Part shown: positions 2,541-38,027 of the stretch, piece by piece | How the letters are laid out: every line of letters begins with the position of its first letter | How positions within the stretch are numbered: the stretch's first letter is position 1 | Virus record (IMG/VR): IMGVR_UViG_3300050821_008802 | Span: 1 to 46,255 of that record | Direction: 5' to 3' (one strand) | From: a virus | DNA: 46,255 nt | Translations under genes and position numbers: made by a program | Notes under the pieces: generated by a model | Told to the model about the DNA's origin: nothing | Database searches by the model: none | Seen by the model: the letters and a program-made list of their open reading frames with translations, nothing else

Positions 2541-2634
2541 CGCGCTTCCCGTGCGCGCTCCCAAACGATCTGGGTATTTGTTTGAGCCTCTGCCCATGCC
2601 GGTTGAGGAGAGAAAGGCGAGTCGGGTGCAATGA
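2521..2634 (+). CDS. Small hypothetical protein, 37 aa
   Basis: The frame starts at ATG 2521 (a second ATG follows at 2524) and stops at TGA 2632-2634. The stop overlaps the ATG of the ATPase gene in an ATGA junction, and GAGGAG at 2607-2612 lies inside it. It may act mainly as a leader that couples translation into the ATPase gene. The product is short, basic and Pro-containing. No family recognised. Confidence 0.45.
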   Translation: MMTSSHNALPVRAPKRSGYLFEPLPMPVEERKASRVQ

Positions 2635-4154
2635 AAGACATTCTGCTGGGTTACGAAGTTGGCAGCGGCAAAGAAGTCCTGATCCCGGTGCGCCACATGT
2701 GCGTCACCGGGCAGACGCAGGAGAGCGGCAAGACCACGACTCTCGAAGCCCTGATCGGTCGCAGTGAAAAGCGCGCCATCGCCTTCGTCACCAAGCGCGG
2801 CGAACGCAGTTTTGAAAGCGGCCGGAAAATCCTTCCCTACTTTCAGGAACGTGCCGACTGGGAATTTGTCGAGTCGGTCATCGAAGCCATCATGCGGCAG
2901 AAGATGAAGTTCGAGCGCGCCTGGATCGTCCGGGCCTGCAAAGGGGCAGAATCGCTCGCTGATGTTCGCGACAATATCCGCGAACTGATGGCGAAATCGA
3001 AACGCAGCATGGATCAGGACTTGTACATGCTGCTCGGCGAATACCTGGACAAGGTTCTGCCGCTCCTGGCGCGGCTTCCCAAGGCCGACGAAATCCAGCT
3101 TAAGCCGGGATTGAATGTGATGGACCTGCGCAGCTACCCGGACGAATTGCAAATGCTGATTATCTCTTCGTCCATGCGCTGGGTGCACGAAGAGGAAAGC
3201 GATGTCATCACAATTCTGCCCGAGGCGTGGAAGTTCGCTCCACAGGGCCGCAACACGCCAGTGAAACTCGAAGTCCGCAAGATCGCCCGCGAAGGCGCCG
3301 GACTGAAGAATTACATCTGGGTCGATTCGCAGGACATCGCGGGAGTGGAAAAAGAAATCCTGCGCGCCGCCTCGGTCTGGCTGATTGGGGTGCAGCGCGA
3401 GTCGAACGAGATCGAACGCTCGCTCTCCTCAATTCCGAAGGGCATCAAGCGCCCGAAAGAAGGCGATATCCCGCAGTTGCGCCTGGGGCAGTTCTTCGCA
3501 TGCTGGGGCGAACACGTTCGCAAAGTGTACGTCATGCCGACGTGGATGCGGCAGATCGAAGCCATCAAGATTGCGCGCGGCGAGATGCGCGTGGAAGATA
3601 TCACGCCGCCGCCGCGCGCCAAGGAGGAAGGAATGGACTACAAGTCGGCCTATGAAGAAGCGCAACAAACGATCGGTGCGCTCAATGAGCAGATAAAAAA
3701 GCTTGAGCGCACAATCGCTTCGATTGAGCAAACCCTGGTGGCGCCGAAGGCGAGCCCGGCGCAAATCAAAGAGGCACAGGCCCACGCAACAACATTGGAG
3801 CCTCTAGCGGCATCGCTGGTCGGCGAAGAAGTCGCCATGTCGCTCGAAGTGAAGCGTCCGGTGATCGATTTAACCAAGCGCGTCTATGTGGTCGAAGCAA
3901 ACACAGACACCTTGTTCGGAAAGATAGCGCTGCTGGTTTCCGAAGGCTTCTTCGATCAAACCAAGAAAGCATTTGCGGGCCTGACCGAGTTGGAGCGCAG
4001 AGGTCACAACCCCGGCCAAGCCAATTTTTACCGTGAAATCGCCAAGCTTGCGGAATTGGGCTTCCTCTCGAAAGAGGGCAAAGACGGGAAGGGAGGCTAT
4101 AAGACCGTCCCCGGCATGAAGGTCAACGTGAAAGAGGTTGAGGCGGTTGCATGA
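2631..4154 (+). CDS. HerA/FtsK-superfamily P-loop ATPase, 507 aa
   Basis: Residues 27-37 form a Walker A motif (GQTQESGKTTT). Around residues 192-200 is a Walker-B-like strand ending in TILPEAW, where the usual Asp-Glu pair reads Pro-Glu. Near 230 the strand YIWVDSQDIAGV carries the Gln typical of HerA/VirD4-type ATPases. A coiled coil (about 340-380, KSAYEEAQQTIGALNEQIKK) is followed by a C-terminal winged-helix-like domain (about 430-500). This architecture fits a ring ATPase that moves DNA, such as a helicase or translocase. No DnaB-type helicase was recognised in the window, so it could serve phage replication or recombination; that is inference. The start is fixed by the ATGA overlap with the preceding mini-gene, and it ends in an ATGA overlap with the next. 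Confidence 0.75.
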   Translation: MKDILLGYEVGSGKEVLIPVRHMCVTGQTQESGKTTTLEALIGRSEKRAIAFVTKRGERSFESGRKILPYFQERADWEFVESVIEAIMRQKMKFERAWIVRACKGAESLADVRDNIRELMAKSKRSMDQDLYMLLGEYLDKVLPLLARLPKADEIQLKPGLNVMDLRSYPDELQMLIISSSMRWVHEEESDVITILPEAWKFAPQGRNTPVKLEVRKIAREGAGLKNYIWVDSQDIAGVEKEILRAASVWLIGVQRESNEIERSLSSIPKGIKRPKEGDIPQLRLGQFFACWGEHVRKVYVMPTWMRQIEAIKIARGEMRVEDITPPPRAKEEGMDYKSAYEEAQQTIGALNEQIKKLERTIASIEQTLVAPKASPAQIKEAQAHATTLEPLAASLVGEEVAMSLEVKRPVIDLTKRVYVVEANTDTLFGKIALLVSEGFFDQTKKAFAGLTELERRGHNPGQANFYREIAKLAELGFLSKEGKDGKGGYKTVPGMKVNVKEVEAVA

Positions 4155-4366
4155 CCTCCGAACTCTCCATCGTCGGCGACTTCTCCCCGGACTTCGGCCC
4201 GGAACTGGCTCCTGCAAACCTGGATAACGTTTGGTGCAACGCCTGTTGTGGGCGAAGAACGTTTGAAGTCGTGGAAGTCTCGAATGCCGGGAGAATCGGC
4301 TGGTGCTACGGCTGCGGAGAAAGAAAGTTCATCCCGTGGGACAGAACGAATTCGGAGGCTGCGTAG
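4151..4366 (+). CDS. Small zinc-ribbon protein, 71 aa
   Basis: The ATG overlaps the ATPase stop (ATGA at 4151-4154). Two Cys pairs, CNACCG and CYGCGE, about 25 residues apart, would hold one zinc ion in a ribbon fold. The stop is directly followed by the next ATG. Its tight coupling to the ATPase suggests a partner role, for example nucleic acid or protein recognition, but this is only inferred. Confidence 0.65.
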   Translation: MTSELSIVGDFSPDFGPELAPANLDNVWCNACCGRRTFEVVEVSNAGRIGWCYGCGERKFIPWDRTNSEAA

Positions 4367-4603
4367 ATGATGGCAAATCTGCTTTTGCTGGCTCACTGCA
4401 TTCTCTACTCCGGATTTCTCACGATGGGATTGCCAGCCGTATTTCTGGCGGCGATTGTGGAAGCGAAGTACCACCGGATTGCAAAGTTCGTTGAATTTCT
4501 GAACCGAGTTTCCGAGGACGGACTGGATCGAAGGGGAAAAGACGGGGAGGTCTCAGTATCCACGCCCAGTCCGTCTCCGGAAAAAGTGTGGAGGGTGGCG
4601 TGA
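4367..4603 (+). CDS. Small membrane protein, 78 aa
   Basis: Residues 2-32 are strongly hydrophobic (NLLLLAHCILYSGFLTMGLP, then AVFLAAIVEA) and should form one or two membrane helices. A basic cytoplasmic tail follows (YHRIAKF), ending in a Ser/Pro-rich segment. It starts immediately after the previous stop and its own stop overlaps the next GTG. No family recognised; it could be a regulator of the cell envelope. Confidence 0.55.
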   Translation: MMANLLLLAHCILYSGFLTMGLPAVFLAAIVEAKYHRIAKFVEFLNRVSEDGLDRRGKDGEVSVSTPSPSPEKVWRVA

Positions 4604-4731
4604 GCGATAGACAGGCTGTGGCTTTTAGTTTTCCGTGCGCGGCGGCACAGGAAACTCTCGACCAGAAATTCTGGGAGCGCATGTGCGTGGATGGACGCTG
4701 GCTTTCGACGATTGTCACGATTAACAAGTGA
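4600..4731 (+). CDS. N-terminal fragment of an interrupted protein, 43 aa
   Basis: Starts at GTG 4600 in a GTGA overlap and stops at TGA 4729-4731. The same reading frame continues after the stop into the next entry. The end of this part (ERMCVDGRWLSTIVTINK) and the start of the next (FNHGRPVWHASVAVLDMR) read like one continuous domain, similar to small phage proteins with a GRPVWHAS core (DUF7694-like, from memory). It may be a pseudogene, a readthrough gene or two split genes. Confidence 0.45.
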   Translation: MSDRQAVAFSFPCAAAQETLDQKFWERMCVDGRWLSTIVTINK

Positions 4732-5443: not shown

Positions 5444-5736
5444 CTCTCACCCGCCAACTCGATCTCGCCAGCCAGCGCGTCGTGCGTGCGCGATTGAAAC
5501 CGCTCGATCAGATACCGGAAGAGTTTCTGTGCTGCGAGCCGCATAAAGAGCGATTGGCAAAGTACCTCGACCGAGTTCTCGAAGCTCTGCCCGATCAGTC
5601 TTTCGATGCGGACATCGCCTGCCCGTTCTGCGGCAGAGCGTTGAAAGCCGTGAAGTGCATGAGCATCCGGCGGATCGACGCGGGCTGCTGGATTCCGATT
5701 GCCTGCTACGAGTTTGACGAAGGAGTCTGCCAGTGA
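5440..5736 (+). CDS. Small zinc-binding protein, 98 aa
   Basis: Starts at GTG 5440 in a GTGA junction. The N-terminal half is helical. Around residues 60-73 CPFCGRALKAVKC looks like a zinc site, and three further Cys residues are scattered (CCEP, AGCW, VCQ). Its stop overlaps the next start (GTGA). It is one of many small Cys-rich early proteins here. No specific function can be given. Confidence 0.6.
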   Translation: MTLTRQLDLASQRVVRARLKPLDQIPEEFLCCEPHKERLAKYLDRVLEALPDQSFDADIACPFCGRALKAVKCMSIRRIDAGCWIPIACYEFDEGVCQ

Positions 5737-6314
5737 GCGCCGCCTTCCAACTCGACTTCACCGGGCCGCAAACGTCATGCGACTATCCCGGCTGTAAGCT
5801 CAATGCCTTTCACGAAGGCGAACACGAGTTCGCGACTCCCGAAGAAAAGCATGCACGCCTTCTTGGCAGCGCCAACCACTACGGCACGAACACCCGCTCC
5901 TACAACCGCTCGGCGGAAAAGCACGAAATGGATCGCCAGCGGAAAGAAGCCACAGCGCGCTATCTTGCGGAACGTGCCGAGTCGGACGCCCCTCCGAAGA
6001 TGAAGACTCAGCTCGACCAAGCGAAGGAGAAGATCGCGAAAGCGGAACTCTCCGATGCCCACTCGGTCAGCCTGACGCGGGGAGAATGGTCCGCTCTCTG
6101 GATGGCCGATCCGCGCAACCGGAAAGAAGTCTTTGCGCCCGTCGTCTGCACCTGCGCCCAGCGCCCCTATCCGCACGAAGTCGGCATTCATAAAAAGACC
6201 GGAGCAGAACGGCCGGGAGTTTATTACGACTACTACGACACTGCGATCCGATTCGCAGAGAAAGAAATGCGCTGGCCGTGGAGTCTGCGGTGGGCGCCGG
6301 AGATGGAGGCGTGA
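5733..6314 (+). CDS. Hypothetical protein, 193 aa
   Basis: GTG 5733 overlaps the previous stop. The N-terminus has a possible metal site (CDYPGCKLNAFHEGEH: two Cys, two His). The middle (about 65-110) is a long charged helix. The C-terminus has a repeated aromatic pattern (YYDYYDTAIRFAEKEMRWPW). The last bases, from 6294, belong to a repeat also found at 11188. No family recognised. Confidence 0.6.
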   Translation: MSAAFQLDFTGPQTSCDYPGCKLNAFHEGEHEFATPEEKHARLLGSANHYGTNTRSYNRSAEKHEMDRQRKEATARYLAERAESDAPPKMKTQLDQAKEKIAKAELSDAHSVSLTRGEWSALWMADPRNRKEVFAPVVCTCAQRPYPHEVGIHKKTGAERPGVYYDYYDTAIRFAEKEMRWPWSLRWAPEMEA

Positions 6315-6521: not shown

Positions 6522-6880
6522 TGGACGCGATCGAGGAATTGCTTTATACGCCCGCATCTTTCGTCTGCGACAAGTGCGGATTTCGTTTGGAGAAGCGCAC
6601 GATGCTTGCCGCAACCGGGCAAGTCGGCGTGAAGATCGGCGGAGAAGAGTGCGAGGATCCATGTCCGAACGACGGCGAACAGATGCGTCGCGTCACATGG
6701 AAAGAAATGGCTCTGTCTTCCTCGGAGTCGGCGCACGAACTCATGCTTGCCTTGATTGAGTCGATCAAACTCCAGAGCCACTACGCCGCGATTCTCAATG
6801 GATACGACGGCGGCGAGCGGCTGCAATTCTCTTGCGTAGCTGCGTGGATCGAGCGGCTAAGGAAAGTGGGAACTCTTTGA
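6521..6880 (+). CDS. Small zinc-binding protein, 119 aa
   Basis: ATG 6521 overlaps the previous stop. Cys residues in VCDKCGF (about 19-22) and CEDPCPNDGE (about 46-50) could bind one zinc. The C-terminal half is helical with a conserved-looking SCVAAWIERLRK end. Its stop overlaps the next ATG. No family recognised; probably a small early protein acting on host factors, which is only a guess. Confidence 0.6.
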   Translation: MDAIEELLYTPASFVCDKCGFRLEKRTMLAATGQVGVKIGGEECEDPCPNDGEQMRRVTWKEMALSSSESAHELMLALIESIKLQSHYAAILNGYDGGERLQFSCVAAWIERLRKVGTL

Positions 6881-6918
6881 TGAGCTACCGCGAAGAAAAC
6901 GGGCAAGTGGTGCTGACC
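6880..6918 (+). repeat. Direct repeat B, copy 1
   Basis: The first 39 bases of this gene match 11456-11494 with two mismatches, both silent. The repeat includes the start codon and the N-terminal module MSYREENGQVVLT. Confidence 0.85.
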
Positions 6919-7158: not shown

Positions 7159-7208
7159 ACGATAAAAGATTTTAGATTTTTTCCCCCGGAAAGGAGAAAC
7201 CCAACACC

Positions 7209-7373
7209 ATGAAAACGCTACTTCGCTCACTCTGGAAAAGTGAAGACGGTCAAGACATCGTCGAGTATGCCGTGATGCTAGCCGTGATCCTGATCATCAT
7301 TGTCGGCACGGTGCGTCTGGTCGGATCGAACGCGAACACCGTGTTCTCGAATACGGCCAGCTCGTTGCAGTAA
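7209..7373 (+). CDS. Flp/Fap-type pilin subunit, 54 aa
   Basis: ATG 7209 follows AAGGAGA. The protein has a short basic start, then GQDIVEYAVMLAVILIIIV, which is the hallmark of type IVb Flp pilins (usual form GQDLVEYAL). The Glu-Tyr pair and the hydrophobic helix after it are intact, and the length is normal for the family. In bacteria such pilins are processed by a TadV-type prepilin peptidase and assembled by the tad machinery; no tad gene is present here. A pilin alone in a phage early operon is odd. It might interfere with or join host pili, or be a stray host gene. Confidence 0.85.
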   Translation: MKTLLRSLWKSEDGQDIVEYAVMLAVILIIIVGTVRLVGSNANTVFSNTASSLQ

Positions 7374-7423
7374 GCAAAGCCAGGAAAGGCTCTCTCCCAA
7401 AGTTCTGCGAAAGGAGAAAAACT

Positions 7424-7798
7424 GTGACTTCGACCGATCTCGTCTCCGAACTTCTCACTCTCGGCCCCGGCCAGAATTCTCCCGAGACCCGGCTCTACTC
7501 CCGCCTGCTCTTGCGATTCCTCGCCGACAACATCCACGAGGCGGAATTATCGAACGGTTTGCCGGTACGCGACGCGACCGATTTCGATATGTGGCTCCGC
7601 GAAATGGCTGACAAGGTGGGACCGCCAAGCACCTCATCTCCGGTGAACTTCGCCGATCACGAACTCCGCTCAACCGGCCGCGCAGTAGAAAGCGATTGGT
7701 GTCCTGGCTGTGGCCACATCCACGCCGATCCCGCCGAGTGTGGATTCCCGATGGGCGGGGCGGGAAAGTGTTTGTGTGATCGGAGGCTCCGGGCATGA
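7424..7798 (+). CDS. Hypothetical zinc-binding protein, 124 aa
   Basis: Starts at GTG 7424 with AAAGGAG upstream. The N-terminal part is helical. The C-terminal part holds a likely zinc site (WCPGCGHIHADPAECGF, then KCLC; three CxxC-like positions plus His). The stop forms an ATGA junction with the next gene. Family unknown. Confidence 0.6.
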   Translation: MTSTDLVSELLTLGPGQNSPETRLYSRLLLRFLADNIHEAELSNGLPVRDATDFDMWLREMADKVGPPSTSSPVNFADHELRSTGRAVESDWCPGCGHIHADPAECGFPMGGAGKCLCDRRLRA

Positions 7799-8510: not shown

Positions 8511-8686
8511 ACCTGCTCGCCTTCACCCTCTTAATGATCGTCGCCGTAGCGGCCTGCTACGCCTGCGGGTACACCCACGGAAAATCGGACGGGATGCGCA
8601 AAGGCCGCGAATCGGAAGAAAACTGGTGGCTCGGAGCGGAAAAAGAAGTCGAGAAGACGCGGGAGAAGATTTGGAGGGAAGAGTGA
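8507..8686 (+). CDS. Small single-pass membrane protein, 59 aa
   Basis: Starts at GTG 8507, overlapping the previous stop. Residues 2-19 (NLLAFTLLMIVAVAACYA) form one membrane helix, followed by a charged, helical cytoplasmic part ending in KTREKIWREE. The stop overlaps the GTG of the large membrane protein that follows, so the two could act together. Confidence 0.6.
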   Translation: MNLLAFTLLMIVAVAACYACGYTHGKSDGMRKGRESEENWWLGAEKEVEKTREKIWREE

Positions 8687-9960
8687 ATAAATACCCCATC
8701 TGGCTCGGCATCGCGGTCGCGGCGGTCATGGTGTGCGTCACCTCGAATTATGCGTGGTGGATGGTCGTAGCTGTCGGCATCGGCGCAAACGGGATTGCCG
8801 TCGCGGCGAATGGCTGGAAGATGCCGGTACGGGGACAGCTTGAAGAAGGAATCCGCCACGCTCCGATGACGGGAAGCACGCGATTCAAGTGCTTCGGGGA
8901 TGTGATTCCCGTGGGGTTCGGCAAAGCGTCCATCGGAGATTTCCTGATTTGGGCTGGGCTCATGGGCGTGTGGGCCACTCGCGGGTCTATTCCTTACGAG
9001 AAGCTGGTTGCCGCCTCTTGCCTGCTCTGGTGGGCGTCGGGATGGGCAAAGGGTTTCAACCTGTTCAAGAAGTGGCCAGCCGAAGCGCGGCGCGATGCCC
9101 GGAAGAACATTCCAATCGTGCTGGTACTGATGGCGCTCGGCAACCTGGTGAACCTGCGCGGGTGCAGTTTCGGAGATTTGCGAGCTTCGGCAGAAAGCCT
9201 CGAAGGTATCGCAGCGTCGGCTCCGAGTCCAGTGAAGCCGAAGGTTATCGCTCAGGAAAAATGGCGCGATCTCGGCAAGCTGGCTCCGCTGAGTCCAGCA
9301 TTTCTAACGCGGCTCAAATTGGAATCGGCGGCGAACGTACGCGAAGGCAAGGCCAGAGCGGAAGAGGAGGCGAAGCGCAAAGCCTTCGATCCGAAGAAAG
9401 CCTTCGAGCACGAAGAAAAGCGCATCGAGGCCAAGGCGCGGCCAGCGTTCGAGCGGGAGCAAAAGCAGGCGGATGCGGTCCGCGCCGCAGGAATAGGAAG
9501 CTTCCCCGGATACTCCGTGAACTGCGACCGCAATGGAAGCTGCGCGGTGTCGGATGGCGACAAAGTTTTTCTGACGGTCAGGGGCGGCGATTATTTACCT
9601 TCAAGCGCTGGCGCCACAACCGCCGGATGGATGGTCTTCACGCAGTCGTCGACTGCTGGCACGGTCACGATCAGCAACCCCGCAACGATGAACAACTCCG
9701 GAACGATGCAGCCCATCGGCACCCGCAAAGGTCCATTCTGCCGCGTCACCTGCACCTTTACCTGCCACCAGCCCGGAGGGAGCGGCAGTGCCGATGCAGA
9801 AACTGATGCCAAATACTGCAAACAGCAGCACATCCCCGATGATGTGGTGAGCGTCATGGGATGGGTCGATGCCGGGAACGGCTACGAATACCAGAGCGGC
9901 TGGCCGGGGCCAGCGTCGGAGCCAGGCGCGCTGAAGTACAAACTCTACTGGAAGCCGTAA
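8683..9960 (+). CDS. Large membrane protein with coiled coil, 425 aa
   Basis: Starts at GTG 8683 in a GTGA junction. The N-terminal 160 residues contain about five hydrophobic segments (near 5-20, 24-42, 85-103, 108-124 and 142-157). A Lys/Glu/Ala-rich stretch (about 200-265) looks like a long helix or coiled coil. The C-terminal 150 residues are beta-rich with several Cys (CDRNGSC, FCRVTCTFTC), suggesting a folded domain that may be disulfide-bonded if exported. It is the largest unexplained early gene. Possible roles include envelope remodelling or superinfection exclusion; nothing in the sequence decides this. Confidence 0.65.
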   Translation: MNKYPIWLGIAVAAVMVCVTSNYAWWMVVAVGIGANGIAVAANGWKMPVRGQLEEGIRHAPMTGSTRFKCFGDVIPVGFGKASIGDFLIWAGLMGVWATRGSIPYEKLVAASCLLWWASGWAKGFNLFKKWPAEARRDARKNIPIVLVLMALGNLVNLRGCSFGDLRASAESLEGIAASAPSPVKPKVIAQEKWRDLGKLAPLSPAFLTRLKLESAANVREGKARAEEEAKRKAFDPKKAFEHEEKRIEAKARPAFEREQKQADAVRAAGIGSFPGYSVNCDRNGSCAVSDGDKVFLTVRGGDYLPSSAGATTAGWMVFTQSSTAGTVTISNPATMNNSGTMQPIGTRKGPFCRVTCTFTCHQPGGSGSADAETDAKYCKQQHIPDDVVSVMGWVDAGNGYEYQSGWPGPASEPGALKYKLYWKP

Positions 9961-11209: not shown

Positions 11210-11459
11210 AACGATGCAGCCATTTGCAGACACTTTCAAATCGTTCCACGATCTGCTGATGCGCACGATTCGCTGCCAAGCAGAGGAAGAAACTGAGCCG
11301 GATATTGCGAGAGCCGACGATCTTGCAAATCGCTTCAACGAAGTCGCGGCGCGCGGCGGCTTCAACAATCGGCAGCGAATGCTGGCCGTGGTGCTTTTCA
11401 TGATCATGGCACTCGACGACCGTGAGAAACATGCCGACGGAAAGAGGCTGGTGCAATGA
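11205..11459 (+). CDS. Small helical protein, 84 aa
   Basis: Starts at GTG 11205 behind GGAGATGGAGG (repeat A). All-helical and acidic, ending in a hydrophobic helix (RQRMLAVVLFMIMALDD) and a basic tail. Position behind the same repeat and a similar terminal helix suggest distant relation to the 68-aa protein at 6315. The stop overlaps the next ATG in an ATGA junction. Confidence 0.55.
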   Translation: MKTMQPFADTFKSFHDLLMRTIRCQAEEETEPDIARADDLANRFNEVAARGGFNNRQRMLAVVLFMIMALDDREKHADGKRLVQ

Positions 11460-11494
11460 GCTACCGCGAAGAGAACGGGCAAGTGGTGTTGACC
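11456..11494 (+). repeat. Direct repeat B, copy 2
   Basis: These 39 bases match 6880-6918 except at two silent positions. They encode MSYREENGQVVLT. Confidence 0.85.
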
Positions 11495-19738: not shown

Positions 19739-19966
19739 ATGTCAGCCGCCCGCCAACTTTCCTTCTCCACCCCTCTTCGCCCTCTCCTGCATTTGCACTA
19801 CGGCACCAGGCCCACTCCAGAACTCACAGCCTACCGCTCCTACCAGGCGTATTGCCGTTTACTCGAGGAGAAGGCTTTGAACTTCGATTCCTGGCGGACT
19901 CAGTCGCAGAGGATATTCGGGAGCGCGCTGAATCATCGGCCGCGCGAGGCGAACCCGCTTGCCTAA
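19739..19966 (+). CDS. Hypothetical protein, 75 aa, upstream of the recombinase
   Basis: ATG 19739 lies in an AT-rich context with no Shine-Dalgarno. The product has a disordered start and a helical end (YRSYQAYCRLLEEKALNFDS, then WRTQSQRIFGSAL). It overlaps the recombinase start by 8 bases in another frame. It could stand in for the missing N-terminal arm-binding domain of the recombinase, but no similarity is visible. Confidence 0.5.
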   Translation: MSAARQLSFSTPLRPLLHLHYGTRPTPELTAYRSYQAYCRLLEEKALNFDSWRTQSQRIFGSALNHRPREANPLA

Positions 19967-20528
19967 AACGAAACGACGGAAGCGGGCCATCCCGGCGCCG
20001 ATCGCGCTCACCCATGACGAGCTGCGCAGCGTTCTCGTCAAAGCTCGGGAAACCGATTATCCCGTCTACCTGTTGATGCTGATCCAGTACCACCATGCCG
20101 GCCGAAACTCCGAGATGATCCACCTGCAGGCCAAGAATTTTGCCGATGGCTTCATTACCTACACGCGCGGGAAGGGATCTGAGCCCTGCCGGCAGCGCCT
20201 GGTGCATTCCAAAGATGATTTGTTGAACGAAACCAAAGTGGTTCCGGAGTTCGTCGGGAAAATGCAGCCGAAGCAGAGGCTCTATCCGCGAACCCGCTGG
20301 ACCTACTGGCGTCACCTGGTGAAGATCGCACTCGCGGCCGGGATCCCGCGCTTCAAAGCGAAGACTACGGTTTTGAAACATTCGATCGTCTCGCACGTCG
20401 TGAAAAAGTACGGCGTGCCCGCCGGCCAGCGCCGCGCCGGACACGTCAACGGCGCCAACACTTTGATCTATGCACGCGTGGCCGAGAGCGAAGTCGACGA
20501 CCTGGTTTCGCAGGGACTTACGGGCTAA
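19959..20528 (+). CDS. Short divergent tyrosine recombinase, 189 aa
   Basis: Starts at TTG 19959, with GAGG upstream. It carries only the catalytic domain: R49 in YHHAGRNSEMIHL (box I), K72 in TRGKGSE, then TTVLKHSIVSH where the usual H-x-x-R reads T137-x-x-K140, and AGHVNGANTLIYARV with H162 and the nucleophile Y171. So three of five catalytic positions are clear and the second His/Arg pair is changed. A Lys in place of that Arg occurs in some short phage/acidobacterial integrases (my recollection). It may integrate the phage or resolve dimers. No N-terminal core-binding domain is present. Confidence 0.75.
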   Translation: MPKTKRRKRAIPAPIALTHDELRSVLVKARETDYPVYLLMLIQYHHAGRNSEMIHLQAKNFADGFITYTRGKGSEPCRQRLVHSKDDLLNETKVVPEFVGKMQPKQRLYPRTRWTYWRHLVKIALAAGIPRFKAKTTVLKHSIVSHVVKKYGVPAGQRRAGHVNGANTLIYARVAESEVDDLVSQGLTG

Positions 20529-26333: not shown

Positions 26334-28622
26334 ATGCCCGACGTCGCCCACAAAGCGGTAGCCAATAAGCACGACAGCATCGGCACCTCCGACGAGAAGC
26401 TGCTGCGCGAAGTGCGGGAGAACTACGAATCCGACACCATTGCCTTCCAGACCATCCGCGACCAGGGCGCAACCGATGTGAAGTTCATCGCTAACGATCC
26501 CTGGCCCGAAAAAGAAAAGCAGGCACGGCGAACTCCGGGCAGTGAACGCCCGATGATGTCCTGCGATTTTCTCAATCAATTTTGCAATCTGGTCATCAAT
26601 GAAGTCAGGCAGCATCCTCGCGAAATCAAACTTTCTCCCCGCGGCTTTGGGGCGACGGCCCAGCTCGCCGAATTGCGCGAAAACCGCATCCGCGCCATTC
26701 AGTACCGGTCCGACGCCCAGGCCGCCTACATCACCGCCATTGAAAACTGCGTGCAGCGCAGCTATGGCTTCGCGCGCGTCTCGCTGCGCTACGCCTCGGC
26801 GACCAGTTTCGATCAGGAAATCTGCATTCGCCGCGTTCCCAACCCCGATTCGGTGCTCTTCGACTCGGCTTGCAAGGAACTCGACTGCTCCGACGCCACC
26901 CATTGCTACATCATCGACGAGATGCTCAAAAGCGAGTTCCGGCGGCGATGGCCGGACGCCGAGGTTATGGAGTTTGAAGGCGCGAACATCACCGCCGCAC
27001 CCGATTGGTTCAAGGACAAATCGCTTCGCGTCGCCGAATACTGGCGAGTCGAGCACAAGACTGACGAACTGTTTCAGTTTGACGGCGGAAAAGCCGGCAT
27101 CCTCACCGAATTGAAATCGAAACTTCTCGCGCGAGGCGGGCGGGTCGAGGACTCGCTCGTCATCTACCCCGAACAGGACGGCCATCCGGAAATTCGCGTG
27201 CCGCTCTTGAACGTACGGAATACCCGCATCCCCGCCATTTGGCAGTACCTCACCAACGGCATCGAGATCCTCGAAGCGAATGAGTGGGTGGGAAAGTGGA
27301 TTCCGGTCATTCCGATTTTCGGCAAAGAGCTTTACCTCACCGAAGCCGCCGGATCGAAGCGCATGCTGCTGAGTTTGATCCGCAACGCGCGCGACAGCCA
27401 GATGTCCTACAACTACGTTCAGACCTGCAAGGTCGAGGCAATCGGCATGGTGCCGCGGACTAACTACCTGGCGCCGGAAGGAGCGTTTGAGGGCCACGAG
27501 GAAGAATTGGAAGACGCCAACCGGAGCCCCAGGCCGGTTACCTACTACAAGCCAACGACGCTTCCAGACGGCGTGACGCCAGCCCCGGCGCCGATCCGCG
27601 AGCCCTTCGATCCGCCGGTGCAAAATCTGGAAATTGCCTCCGAATCTTTCCTTCGAGCCGGGCAAACCGCCGTGGGTATGTACAACACCTCGGTCGGCAA
27701 AAACGACACCAACGCCAAATCGGGAAAAGCGATTCAAGAACTGGACGCGCAGTCCGATATCGGCTCTTTCCACTTCATCGACAACTACAACCGGTTCATC
27801 GTGGCCGTAGGGCGCATCGTCAACGATCTGCAATCGAAAATCGAAATTACGCCGAAACAAGTCCCGATCCGCATGAAGGACGGAAAAGAGAAACTGGTCT
27901 GGATCAACAAGCCGTACACCGACGACCAGGGGCAGCAACAGCATCACGATATGACGCTGGGAGAGTACGACGTAACGCTCTCGGTTAGCCCAACAGAGGA
28001 TTCTCAGCGCGAAGAAGCCAGCGATTACCTGGAGACGCTCACCGAGCAACTGGCCGAGCTGCCGCTCGACCCACAGGTGAAGCAACACCTTCTCGCCCTG
28101 ATGATCCAGTTGAAACAAATGGGTCCGATCGGCGACCAGATGGTGAAGATTCTCGAACCGCCCACCGGGGACCCGGCGCAACTGCAACAGCAGATGCAGA
28201 CGTTGCAGGCGCAACTCTCGCAACTGCAGACCGAGAACGCCGCACTTCATCAGGACCGAGCCAAGCGGCAACTGGAAGCCGACACGAAACTTCAGCTCAA
28301 GCAGATGGAGATTCAGGCCGACGGAGCAGCCGATGCCGCCGCCCACGTCAACGCGCAAACCATCGCGCAGATGCAGAACGATATCAAGGTTTTGGTCGCG
28401 CTCATCTCAGCCAAAAACCAGAACGAGCAGCAAGAGCAGGAGATGTACAAGGAATTCTGGCTGGAGAATCACCGCGCCGCGCACGATGTGGGTCTGCAGG
28501 CCGCCGACCAGGAACACGAAAAGAATTTAGCCGAAACGCAGGCCCAGACCGCAGCCGCGCAGCAGGCTACCCAGATTCAGGCGGATCAGCAGTCGCAAGC
28601 GCAGCCGCCTGCTGGATCGTAA
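26334..28622 (+). CDS. Portal protein, P22 type, 762 aa
   Basis: Length and layout match the long P22-type portal. The N-terminus (SDEKLLREVRENYESDTIAF) leads into the usual wing region with the NQFCNLVINEVRQHPREIKL segment, then conserved pieces such as RRVPNPDSVLFDSACKELDC and ESFLRAGQTAVGMYNTSVGK. The C-terminal 170 residues form a long Gln-rich helical barrel (LQQQMQTLQAQLSQLQTEN), which in P22 helps sense headful filling. It forms the dodecameric DNA gate of the capsid. ATG follows directly after the previous stop. A long antisense frame across it (26001-28358) is a codon-bias shadow. Confidence 0.92.
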   Translation: MPDVAHKAVANKHDSIGTSDEKLLREVRENYESDTIAFQTIRDQGATDVKFIANDPWPEKEKQARRTPGSERPMMSCDFLNQFCNLVINEVRQHPREIKLSPRGFGATAQLAELRENRIRAIQYRSDAQAAYITAIENCVQRSYGFARVSLRYASATSFDQEICIRRVPNPDSVLFDSACKELDCSDATHCYIIDEMLKSEFRRRWPDAEVMEFEGANITAAPDWFKDKSLRVAEYWRVEHKTDELFQFDGGKAGILTELKSKLLARGGRVEDSLVIYPEQDGHPEIRVPLLNVRNTRIPAIWQYLTNGIEILEANEWVGKWIPVIPIFGKELYLTEAAGSKRMLLSLIRNARDSQMSYNYVQTCKVEAIGMVPRTNYLAPEGAFEGHEEELEDANRSPRPVTYYKPTTLPDGVTPAPAPIREPFDPPVQNLEIASESFLRAGQTAVGMYNTSVGKNDTNAKSGKAIQELDAQSDIGSFHFIDNYNRFIVAVGRIVNDLQSKIEITPKQVPIRMKDGKEKLVWINKPYTDDQGQQQHHDMTLGEYDVTLSVSPTEDSQREEASDYLETLTEQLAELPLDPQVKQHLLALMIQLKQMGPIGDQMVKILEPPTGDPAQLQQQMQTLQAQLSQLQTENAALHQDRAKRQLEADTKLQLKQMEIQADGAADAAAHVNAQTIAQMQNDIKVLVALISAKNQNEQQEQEMYKEFWLENHRAAHDVGLQAADQEHEKNLAETQAQTAAAQQATQIQADQQSQAQPPAGS

Positions 28623-29921: not shown

Positions 29922-31166
29922 ATGGCCACAGCAAATACCTTTCAATTCGTTGACTGGGTTGCGGCGGAATCTCTGCGTATGCTGCTCAACCGGCTGGTAT
30001 ACGCCCAGTTCGCATCCCACGAGTACGAAAAAGAATACGAGCGCACCTACGCGGTCGGCGAAACCGTCCGCGTCAAACTGCCGCAGCGCTGGCTGGTAAC
30101 GAACGGCCTGGCGTTCCAACCTCAACCGATCAACCGCATCTACACCACGGTTTCCGTCAACCAGATCTTCGGCATTCACTTCCAGGTGGACAGCTTGGAA
30201 CGCGCGCTGAAGATGGAGCGCGGCCGCGAGTGGTTCAAGAAAGAGTACATCGACAAGCAGATGGCGAAACTGGCGAACGAAATCGATCGCCGGTTCGCGT
30301 TGTTCGCCATGCAGAATACGTCGAACATCGTGGGCCAGTTGGGAGTCGATCCCACCTCGATGACGACTTTCCTGCAGGCGCGGCAACGCTTGATCGAGCA
30401 GGGATGCCCGCAGGATGGCGAATGGGGCATGATCTATCCGCCTTCCGTCGGCACCAGCCTGATTCCCTCGCTCGCCTCATTCTTCAATCCGACCTCTGAA
30501 ATCAGCCGGCAGTACAAACGCGGCTCGATGGGCAAGATGGTCGGCTTCGACTGGTACGAGTCGGTGAACAACTGGCGGCAGACGGCCGGCACGCAAGCCG
30601 GAACCAACACCGTCGCAGGCGCGAATCAGCAGGGCTCGCAACTGACGATCAACGCCACCGCCGGCGACACCTACGCTCAGGGCGATATTTTCGAAATCGC
30701 CAATGTCAATGCCGTGAACCCCGAGAACCTGGCTGTGATCTCGACAGCGCAGGGTAAGGAGTTCGTGGTCACGCAGGCTATCACCTGCGTGGGCGGCGGA
30801 GCCGATGTGTTGAACATCTCTCCCGCCATCTTCGGCCCGGGCAGCCAGTACCAGAACGTGGATTCGCTTCCGGCGAATGCCGCGGCGCTGACTTCCTATC
30901 CGGGAACGGTTTCGCCCAATGGCAAATCTTCGGCGCAGGGCCTCGCCCTCACCAAAGATGCGTATGCCATGGTTGGAGTCGAACTCGACATTCCGAAGGC
31001 CTGCGAATGGTCCGGCCGCGCCACCGATCCCGAGACCGGGATCTCCGTCGCGCTGCTTGATATGTTCGATCCGATCGAGCGCAAGCGGGTCTGCCGTGCT
31101 GATGTCCTCCTGGGCTTCGGTGCGCTGTATCCGGACAACTGCGCCGTCCGTATTGCCTGCAGCTAA
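29922..31166 (+). CDS. Major capsid protein, P22-coat type, 414 aa
   Basis: Follows the scaffold. Starts MATANTFQFVDWVAAESLRM, and has the coat-type pieces RVKLPQRWLVTNGLAFQPQP, YIDKQMAKLANEIDRRFALF, SNIVGQLGVDPTSMTTFLQA and SMGKMVGFDWYESVN. The pattern and length match the P22 gene 5 coat family (HK97-type fold with an inserted I-domain). It forms the icosahedral shell. TCTAG lies before the ATG; the ribosome binding site is weak (AAGGACG). Confidence 0.9.
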   Translation: MATANTFQFVDWVAAESLRMLLNRLVYAQFASHEYEKEYERTYAVGETVRVKLPQRWLVTNGLAFQPQPINRIYTTVSVNQIFGIHFQVDSLERALKMERGREWFKKEYIDKQMAKLANEIDRRFALFAMQNTSNIVGQLGVDPTSMTTFLQARQRLIEQGCPQDGEWGMIYPPSVGTSLIPSLASFFNPTSEISRQYKRGSMGKMVGFDWYESVNNWRQTAGTQAGTNTVAGANQQGSQLTINATAGDTYAQGDIFEIANVNAVNPENLAVISTAQGKEFVVTQAITCVGGGADVLNISPAIFGPGSQYQNVDSLPANAAALTSYPGTVSPNGKSSAQGLALTKDAYAMVGVELDIPKACEWSGRATDPETGISVALLDMFDPIERKRVCRADVLLGFGALYPDNCAVRIACS

Positions 31167-36856: not shown

Positions 36857-37203
36857 TGCCGACAACCCAGACCATCCGCCGCCTTCCGCCGACCAAGCAC
36901 GCGGACCTTCGCCCGGAGATGCAGTTCTGGGAACTGGAGACACAGCAAGTTGCTCCTTTGCGACTCGTCGACACCTCGGCAGGCAGCTACGAAGAGAATC
37001 CCCCGGAAGCCGGATTGAACACGTCGACCGGGCAGACGAACCAGAATCAGGAAATCACGTACAAGAAAATCTCGGCGGACGGGAATACCTTTACCCTAGC
37101 CGGAGTCGGCGGAAACCTACCGGAAGGCCCGCTAACGCTGACGGCGCAGTGGCAGTCTTTTAAGATCAAATCCAACGGAACGGACTGGTATAAGGTCGGA
37201 TGA
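36856..37203 (+). CDS. Tail-region hypothetical protein, 115 aa
   Basis: ATG 36856 overlaps the previous stop. Mostly beta: LVDTSAGSYEENPPEAGLNT, then NTFTLAGVGGNLPEGPLTLT and SFKIKSNGTDWYKVG, similar in style to small tail proteins with a short beta domain. The stop overlaps the ACP start (ATGA). Confidence 0.6.
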   Translation: MPTTQTIRRLPPTKHADLRPEMQFWELETQQVAPLRLVDTSAGSYEENPPEAGLNTSTGQTNQNQEITYKKISADGNTFTLAGVGGNLPEGPLTLTAQWQSFKIKSNGTDWYKVG

Positions 37204-37394
37204 CCCAAGAGCAAATTATTGAAACCGTGCAAAGCGAGCTGGGGATCGACGGCATCACGCTCGAAACCACGCTCGATTCGCTGGGAGTCGACTCGCTGGG
37301 ATTCATGGAATTGATGCTCAAGTGCGAAGTTCCACGGGAGAAAGAAGTGGGAATTGAGACGGTGGGCGATATTGTGAAGGCAGTCGCGGTATAA
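37200..37394 (+). CDS. Acyl carrier protein, 64 aa
   Basis: The ATG overlaps the previous stop in ATGA. Residues 25-36 are LDSLGVDSLGFM, the ACP signature with D31-S32-L33; S32 would carry 4'-phosphopantetheine added by a host transferase. Helices before and after (QEQIIETVQSELG; VGDIVKAVAV) complete the four-helix fold; it is 10-15 residues shorter than typical bacterial ACPs. It would shuttle acyl groups. No fatty acid or polyketide genes lie near; the only nearby acyl enzyme is the GNAT at 37572. Phage-encoded ACPs are known but rare. Confidence 0.85.
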   Translation: MTQEQIIETVQSELGIDGITLETTLDSLGVDSLGFMELMLKCEVPREKEVGIETVGDIVKAVAV

Positions 37395-37416: not shown

Positions 37417-37572
37417 ATGATATTTTCGCTGGTTCTTTTTGGCGTCGGATTCGCGGTGACCGTTCATGGCGACAACCTGTATCAGGTTGGCCACTCGAAG
37501 CTTTCCCTTACTTTGATCTGGGGCTCTCGCTGGCGCAGCTTCAGTATTTACGGCCCCGTTGCGCAGGTTTGA
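37417..37572 (+). CDS. Small membrane protein, 51 aa
   Basis: ATG 37417 follows GGAGGAA. Hydrophobic N-terminus (MIFSLVLFGVGFAVTV), then a polar aromatic part (LSLTLIWGSRWRSFSIYGPV). It lies between the acyl carrier protein and the GNAT gene, and its stop overlaps the GNAT ATG (TGATG), so the three genes are co-expressed. It could anchor the pair at the membrane, which is inference. No family recognised. Confidence 0.6.
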   Translation: MIFSLVLFGVGFAVTVHGDNLYQVGHSKLSLTLIWGSRWRSFSIYGPVAQV

Positions 37573-38027
37573 TGCTGACCTTCCAGCGCGAATCCTGGGC
37601 CGCCATGCAGCGCGAGGCCGAACCGATCTTCCGCATTCACTTCGAAGAACTGGCCCTGCACAAAGACGTTATGCCGATGGGCTGCGATCATGAATTCTAT
37701 TTCAATCTGGAGCGCAATCACTTCCTCTTAGTCGCCACCGCACGACGGGACGGCAAACTGATCGGCTACTACGTGGGCATCGTCATCGCGCATCATCCGC
37801 ACAATAAAGACGGCGGCAAAGTCTCGACAACAGACATGTTCTACCTTCTGCCGGATGAACGGAAAGGCGGCGCGGGAGCCAAGTTGCTGCGCTTCGCAGA
37901 AAACGAGTTGCGACGGGAAGGCGTAAAGAAAGCTACGATCTCAACGAAATTGCATTTTGAGTCGGGCGAGTTGCTCGATGCGCTGGGATGGGAAAAGACG
38001 GACGTGGTGCGGCAAAAGGTGCTCTGA
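37572..38027 (+). CDS. GNAT-family acyltransferase, 151 aa
   Basis: ATG 37572 overlaps the previous stop. The GNAT motif A is MFYLLPDERKGGAGAKLLRF (about 89-108) with the R/K-x-x-G-x-G/A pyrophosphate-binding loop (RKGGAGA), preceded by the strands FLLVATARRDGKLIGYYVGI. Length is standard. GNATs move acetyl or longer acyl groups from CoA, or in some cases from ACP, to amines. GNATs near head/tail genes are common in phages. The nearby ACP makes acyl-ACP an attractive donor, by analogy to HlyC-type toxin acyltransferases. Its 3' end is opposite the Tat gene. Confidence 0.85.
   Translation: MLTFQRESWAAMQREAEPIFRIHFEELALHKDVMPMGCDHEFYFNLERNHFLLVATARRDGKLIGYYVGIVIAHHPHNKDGGKVSTTDMFYLLPDERKGGAGAKLLRFAENELRREGVKKATISTKLHFESGELLDALGWEKTDVVRQKVL

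Follow-up and report, generated by a model that had tools for sequence, protein, structure and literature searches.

A predicted Flp-type prepilin gene carried by a tailed phage, and its relatives in Acidobacteriota and in other viral contigs

Why would a tailed phage carry a single pilin gene? The window analysed here is one whole IMG/VR record of 46,255 bases (complete as a record, not necessarily as a phage genome), and the initial annotation had singled out one of its small genes as encoding a Flp-type pilin. Inhibitors with which phages disable or modify pili are already known; a pilin supplied by the phage itself would, if true, be another route of host control, and would connect uncultivated phages of soil with one narrow group within Acidobacteriota.

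A predicted Flp prepilin within a phage record

The open reading frame starts with ATG, spans positions 7209-7373 on the plus strand and encodes a product of 54 aa, MKTLLRSLWKSEDGQDIVEYAVMLAVILIIIVGTVRLVGSNANTVFSNTASSLQ. Its layout is that of a Flp prepilin: a charged leader comes first, then Gly14, Gln15-Asp16 and Glu19-Tyr20, and a hydrophobic helix runs into a short polar tail. The cleavage-site Gly14, Glu19 and Tyr20 bear the same residue numbers as in C. crescentus PilA. The traits of the Flp/Fap family are present, namely a short prepilin with Gly(-1) and, counted in the mature chain, Glu5 and Tyr6, homology to pilins of tad loci, and a single long amphipathic helix without a globular domain: the AlphaFold2 model is essentially one long helix over residues 12-53 (core pLDDT 93-97; mean pLDDT 81 and pTM 0.45 overall). 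The Pfam Flp_Fap profile (PF04964) gave 22.2 bits (E 1.2e-4) against a curated cut-off of 32.2 bits. Because the true tad-locus pilin L021, which in a full Terriglobales locus is directly followed by RcpC, secretin, a TadZ-like ATPase, T2SSE and T2SSF (Pfam confirming RcpC, Secretin, T2SSE and T2SSF), itself scores only 20.9 bits, we regard the low score as a trait of the subfamily and as uninformative. A loose Flp motif scan of the window matched this reading frame alone, and a sequence search of solved structures gave chance matches only (transporters, S100). The frame is not a product of chance, judging by 70-82% identity to host pilins and tblastn E values down to 3e-24. From its residue layout, predicted helix and homology, we conclude that it is a Flp-type prepilin, as had been proposed.

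A small protein with one helix could also be a phage membrane protein of another role, such as a holin or an immunity protein, that resembles a pilin or was recruited from one, and cell-wall hydrolase-like genes do lie near the pilin in two other viral contigs (L005, L007). We consider this very unlikely, as Glu19/Tyr20 and the cleavage site are kept, although a holin could do without them, and the window copy lies outside any recognisable lysis region.

Besides the genes in Table 1, the window encodes a terminase small subunit, a head-closure protein, and ERF and YqaJ recombination proteins. The claim that no tad genes are near held throughout: models for T2SSE, T2SSF, prepilin peptidase, CpaB/RcpC and TadE matched none of the 74 window proteins, which thus include no match to tad, type II secretion or prepilin-peptidase models and none of the linked tad, rcp or cpa genes that define a tad locus. 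The annotation had named a host tad locus beyond the window as the case that would overturn its reading; this is ruled out, because the window is the entire virus record and phage genes flank the pilin on both sides. Integration of the phage into a pilin gene was likewise rejected, the integrase lying 12 kb from the pilin.

Table 1. Features of the window that bear on the pilin gene
Feature	Positions	Strand	Remarks
ATPase-like protein	2631..4154	+	Walker-A-like motif read from sequence; early-module marker; L004 63%, L100 53%
Small cysteine-rich protein of early module	4151..4366	+	41% to L004
Early-module protein	5733..6314	+	Homologue at L004 4226-4657; upstream of pilin in window and L004
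Spacer upstream of pilin gene	7159..7208	+	50 nt
Shine-Dalgarno sequence AAAGGAG	7190..7196	+	Read directly; 12 nt before ATG
Flp-type prepilin gene (predicted)	7209..7373	+	54 aa; predicted cut after Gly14; mature pilin Gln15-Gln54; Glu19/Tyr20
Spacer downstream of pilin gene	7374..7423	+	50 nt; host DNA similarity over by 7391 at latest
Gene after pilin	7424..7798	+	Homologue in L100 (37%), itself without pilin
Short tyrosine recombinase (integrase family)	19959..20528	+	Lysogeny possible
P22-type portal protein	26334..28622	+	Marks record as tailed phage
P22-type coat protein	29922..31166	+	

The small plus-strand genes between 5034 and 8683 overlap by 1-4 nt or abut, and the pilin gene alone is set off by spacers on both sides. 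A consensus scan of the spacer before it yielded no sigma-70-like promoter, and nothing convincing as a plus-strand terminator was found after it. The initial description of a gene among small early genes, behind a strong ribosome binding site, therefore stands in part: the block of small genes is there, while 'early' is inferred from position, its only basis, and the Shine-Dalgarno sequence is strong, although its distance to the ATG exceeds the ideal.

Some other features of the window are recorded here in their own right. Two different genes open with a shared stretch of 39 nt (6880-6918 and 11456-11494; 95% identical), MSYREENGQVVLT, and one gene with such a start lies near the contig end in a near relative, G029; the shared start may be a recombination site. 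A large membrane-anchored protein with a DUF5317 match is encoded at 8683-9960. Among the structural-region genes is a small acyl-carrier-protein gene (37200-37394; PF00550, 33 bits, DSLG motif), with a GNAT acetyltransferase gene (37572-38027) after it. It is unusual for a phage to carry such a carrier protein.

Host relatives and the origin of the gene

When 84,980 genomes were scanned, relatives of the pilin turned up at 409 loci. The best 79 of these all belong to Acidobacteriota, under labels such as Ca. Sulfotelmatobacter, Acidobacteriaceae and Terriglobia. Comparison with host Flp genes, which had been put forward as a check, places the closest relatives, at the identities given above, in the Terriglobales; the highest value, 82% over 45 core residues, is shared by one tad-locus and one solitary host pilin. 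At least 26 of 82 host pilins, a count in which one extra regex match is not a pilin, are immediate neighbours of at least two genes out of cpaB/rcpC, secretin, tadZ, tadA and tadB; of the remainder, most (about 55 of the 82) have no tad genes within 9 kb, on contigs that are in some cases short.

At E<=1e-15, the subfamily was present in 3 of 199 genomes drawn across Acidobacteriota and in 33 of 80 genomes of the family of G011 (Ca. Sulfotelmatobacter), with 1-16 copies in each. These findings make a host in this family likely, if unproven, and the window phage, a soil phage, probably infects Acidobacteria. A coat-protein search for prophages in 396 Acidobacteriota genomes returned one weak match (32%) and no close coat protein. 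The host copies show patterns of their own: G011, G473, G507, G513 and others each have as many as 16 genes of the Flp subfamily, a large part of them solitary, and 15 solitary copies in the sample precede a DAHP-synthase-like gene. Several solitary copies adjoin regulator genes.

DNA similarity between host and window is limited to 7208-7391, suggesting that the pilin gene was taken alone, and not recently. The proposal that the phage had picked up a host gene is borne out by these comparisons with host sequences.

Recurrence and selection in viral contigs

Other phages do carry such a pilin: relatives were found in 11 further IMG/VR contigs (12 viral contigs with the window) of several lineages, ranging from 37-kb phages to records of 332-463 kb, the jumbo-sized contigs being called phage by IMG/VR class and by weak matches to a terminase profile that also matches most control genomes. 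The pilin lies near terminase or portal genes in L003 and L009 and near a large tail protein in L005, which has its terminase elsewhere in the contig; the copy in L256 (332 kb) is more diverged, and that of L010 is the most diverged. Frames are intact in all contigs, save for an additional, broken copy in L002, a contig that perhaps consists of host DNA plus the remains of a phage. There, a terminase pair sits between two direct repeats of 219 nt (1093-1310 and 4445-4659) that correspond to the 3' part of the pilin gene; the repeats begin exactly at the Gly(-1) codon, and the left copy has no leader. L002 may represent a prophage that has decayed and that became linked to host DNA through pilin homology.

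Whether related phages keep the gene had been posed as a check, and the answer is mixed. L004 has the order of the window, in which the ATPase-like gene (63%), the gene for the cysteine-rich protein and one more gene precede the pilin, although its terminase and portal are of families other than those of the window; L100, in contrast, has part of the early module and no pilin. No exact empty site for the window's own pilin was found, and the comparison is that of L004 with the gene and L100 without it. The pilin is absent from all 50 records in which a related coat or ATPase gene occurs, many of which are fragments. G029, the closest relative among phages (83-99% identity across the structural region), was set aside as evidence on retention, because its contig ends short of the pilin region.

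L006, L007, L008 and L098 (51-463 kb) are syntenic around the pilin, which in each of them lies downstream of a DUF6011 protein. L197, a close relative of these four, has about 12 nt at the place that the pilin takes up in L006, between the same two genes, and the pilin occurs nowhere else in its 88-kb contig. The filled and empty sites are clean (L006 8004-8162 vs L197 4831-4863), bounded by the DUF6011 gene and a conserved small gene. This is the pattern that defines a moron, a single gene present or absent at a fixed site between close relatives.

In a tree of 92 pilins, built on 54 columns with most forks unresolved and bootstrap not settled, the four syntenic phage copies cluster (100/89 support) and other phage copies fall among host sequences, forcing at least 3 changes of phage label; several phage pilins sit on long branches. 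The host set is biased towards close relatives, as it was picked with a conserved seed and with the window as reference. By the simple Nei-Gojobori method, and over 44 codons, which makes the values rough, dN and dS are 0.13 and 0.74 between the window and its closest host copy, and 0.13 and 1.52 between the phage copies L006 and L007. Synonymous change clearly dominates in these codon comparisons even between two phage copies, and by this measure the pilin gene is kept by purifying selection.

It could still be that multi-copy host pilin genes are captured by chance now and then and have neither function nor effect on fitness in the phage. With 1-16 copies per host genome capture is likely, the gene is absent from most related phages, and the clean presence/absence pair of L006 and L197 fits it. 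We nevertheless hold this to be quite improbable: dN is far below dS even from phage copy to phage copy, frames are intact outside the single broken L002 copy, and the position in the module is equal in two phages with different packaging genes. Recurrence in phages, module position, the present/absent pair and the excess of synonymous change together suggest that the pilin is a repeatedly captured and maintained single-gene passenger.

What the phage pilin may do, and how it compares with known systems

The Tad pilin of Caulobacter loses its first 14 residues, and the hydrogen-bond network in the core of the pilus is built on Glu19 and Tyr20 (PMC11067988). The window pilin has its cleavage glycine, Gln15, glutamate and tyrosine at the Caulobacter positions, and where it departs from the host consensus the changes are conservative, so processing and co-assembly would be expected. 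Its residues 36, 43, 48 and 51 match those common in host pilins, which makes co-assembly with them plausible. Tad pili are known phage receptors: residues 43, 48 and 51 of the Caulobacter pilin take part in binding of phage Cb5, and the substitutions N43R/T51A accompany loss of adsorption (PMC11067988). The outward residues of the window pilin are almost the same as in the host, so the receptor surface as such would be altered very little, and with so host-like an outer face an effect on dose or assembly is likelier than a swapped receptor surface.

We propose, at about even odds, that the gene encodes a functional, host-derived prepilin that joins host Tad pili and changes them to the benefit of the phage. 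A Flp prepilin gene would have come, as a single gene, out of a Terriglobales (Ca. Sulfotelmatobacter-like) host and become a passenger of the phage. Its product would insert into the inner membrane of the infected or lysogenic cell, be cleaved behind Gly14 by the prepilin peptidase of the host, join the host pilin pool and enter host Tad pili, altering their number or make-up. The benefit, which is a guess, would most likely be interference with pilus-dependent adsorption of other phages; altered attachment or aggregation of infected cells is an alternative payoff. Against pilus remodelling stands the fact that most relatives of the window phage have no pilin.

A processed pilin might instead act in the inner membrane as a decoy or regulator, saturating the peptidase or the assembly platform or signalling 'enough pilin', with fewer Tad pili on the host during infection as the outcome. 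Sensing of pilin levels is established for other type IV pili, and the strong Shine-Dalgarno sequence, the selection on the mature part and the regulator genes beside several solitary host copies would all fit. We think this unlikely, given that the assembly residues Glu19/Tyr20 and the outer residues, needless for a pure decoy, are also kept. Pursuing the proposal that the pilin enters host pili, one can imagine, though we find it doubtful, that unrelated Acidobacteriota phages (37-46 kb to 332-463 kb) have repeatedly captured the major Tad pilin of their hosts and remodel the pili of infected cells against rival phages, and that the 1-16 copies in their hosts may reflect the same arms race.

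A limited full-text literature search, covering phage-borne pilins, Flp together with viral genes and phages of Acidobacteriota, retrieved no published phage-borne pilin, and the Tunturi phage paper makes no mention of pili. No PHROGs family matches the window pilin. Pilins in GenBank phages were not found either, in a search with an approximate Caulobacter-like pilin as one query; the same kind of query found nothing in plasmids, so the search is insensitive to distant Flps.

Among known systems, the Tad Flp/PilA major pilins (PF04964; Terriglobales tad loci) resemble the phage protein in length, in the Gly-X4-Glu-Tyr site, in the single helix, in sequence identity (70-82%) and in surface residues, whereas the phage gene is solitary, without tad genes, and several phage copies are long-branched. 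The solitary Flp genes of Ca. Sulfotelmatobacter-like genomes belong to the same subfamily and also have no tad genes nearby, but they are chromosomal and have recurrent neighbours (the DAHP-synthase-like gene and regulators). Pseudomonas phages achieve superinfection exclusion through proteins that act on type IV pili (PMC11436027), and the outcome proposed here, changed pili of the infected cell, is the same; those proteins act as inhibitors or lower the output of pilus components (PilB, PilA expression), in contrast to the window protein, which would be a pilin itself.
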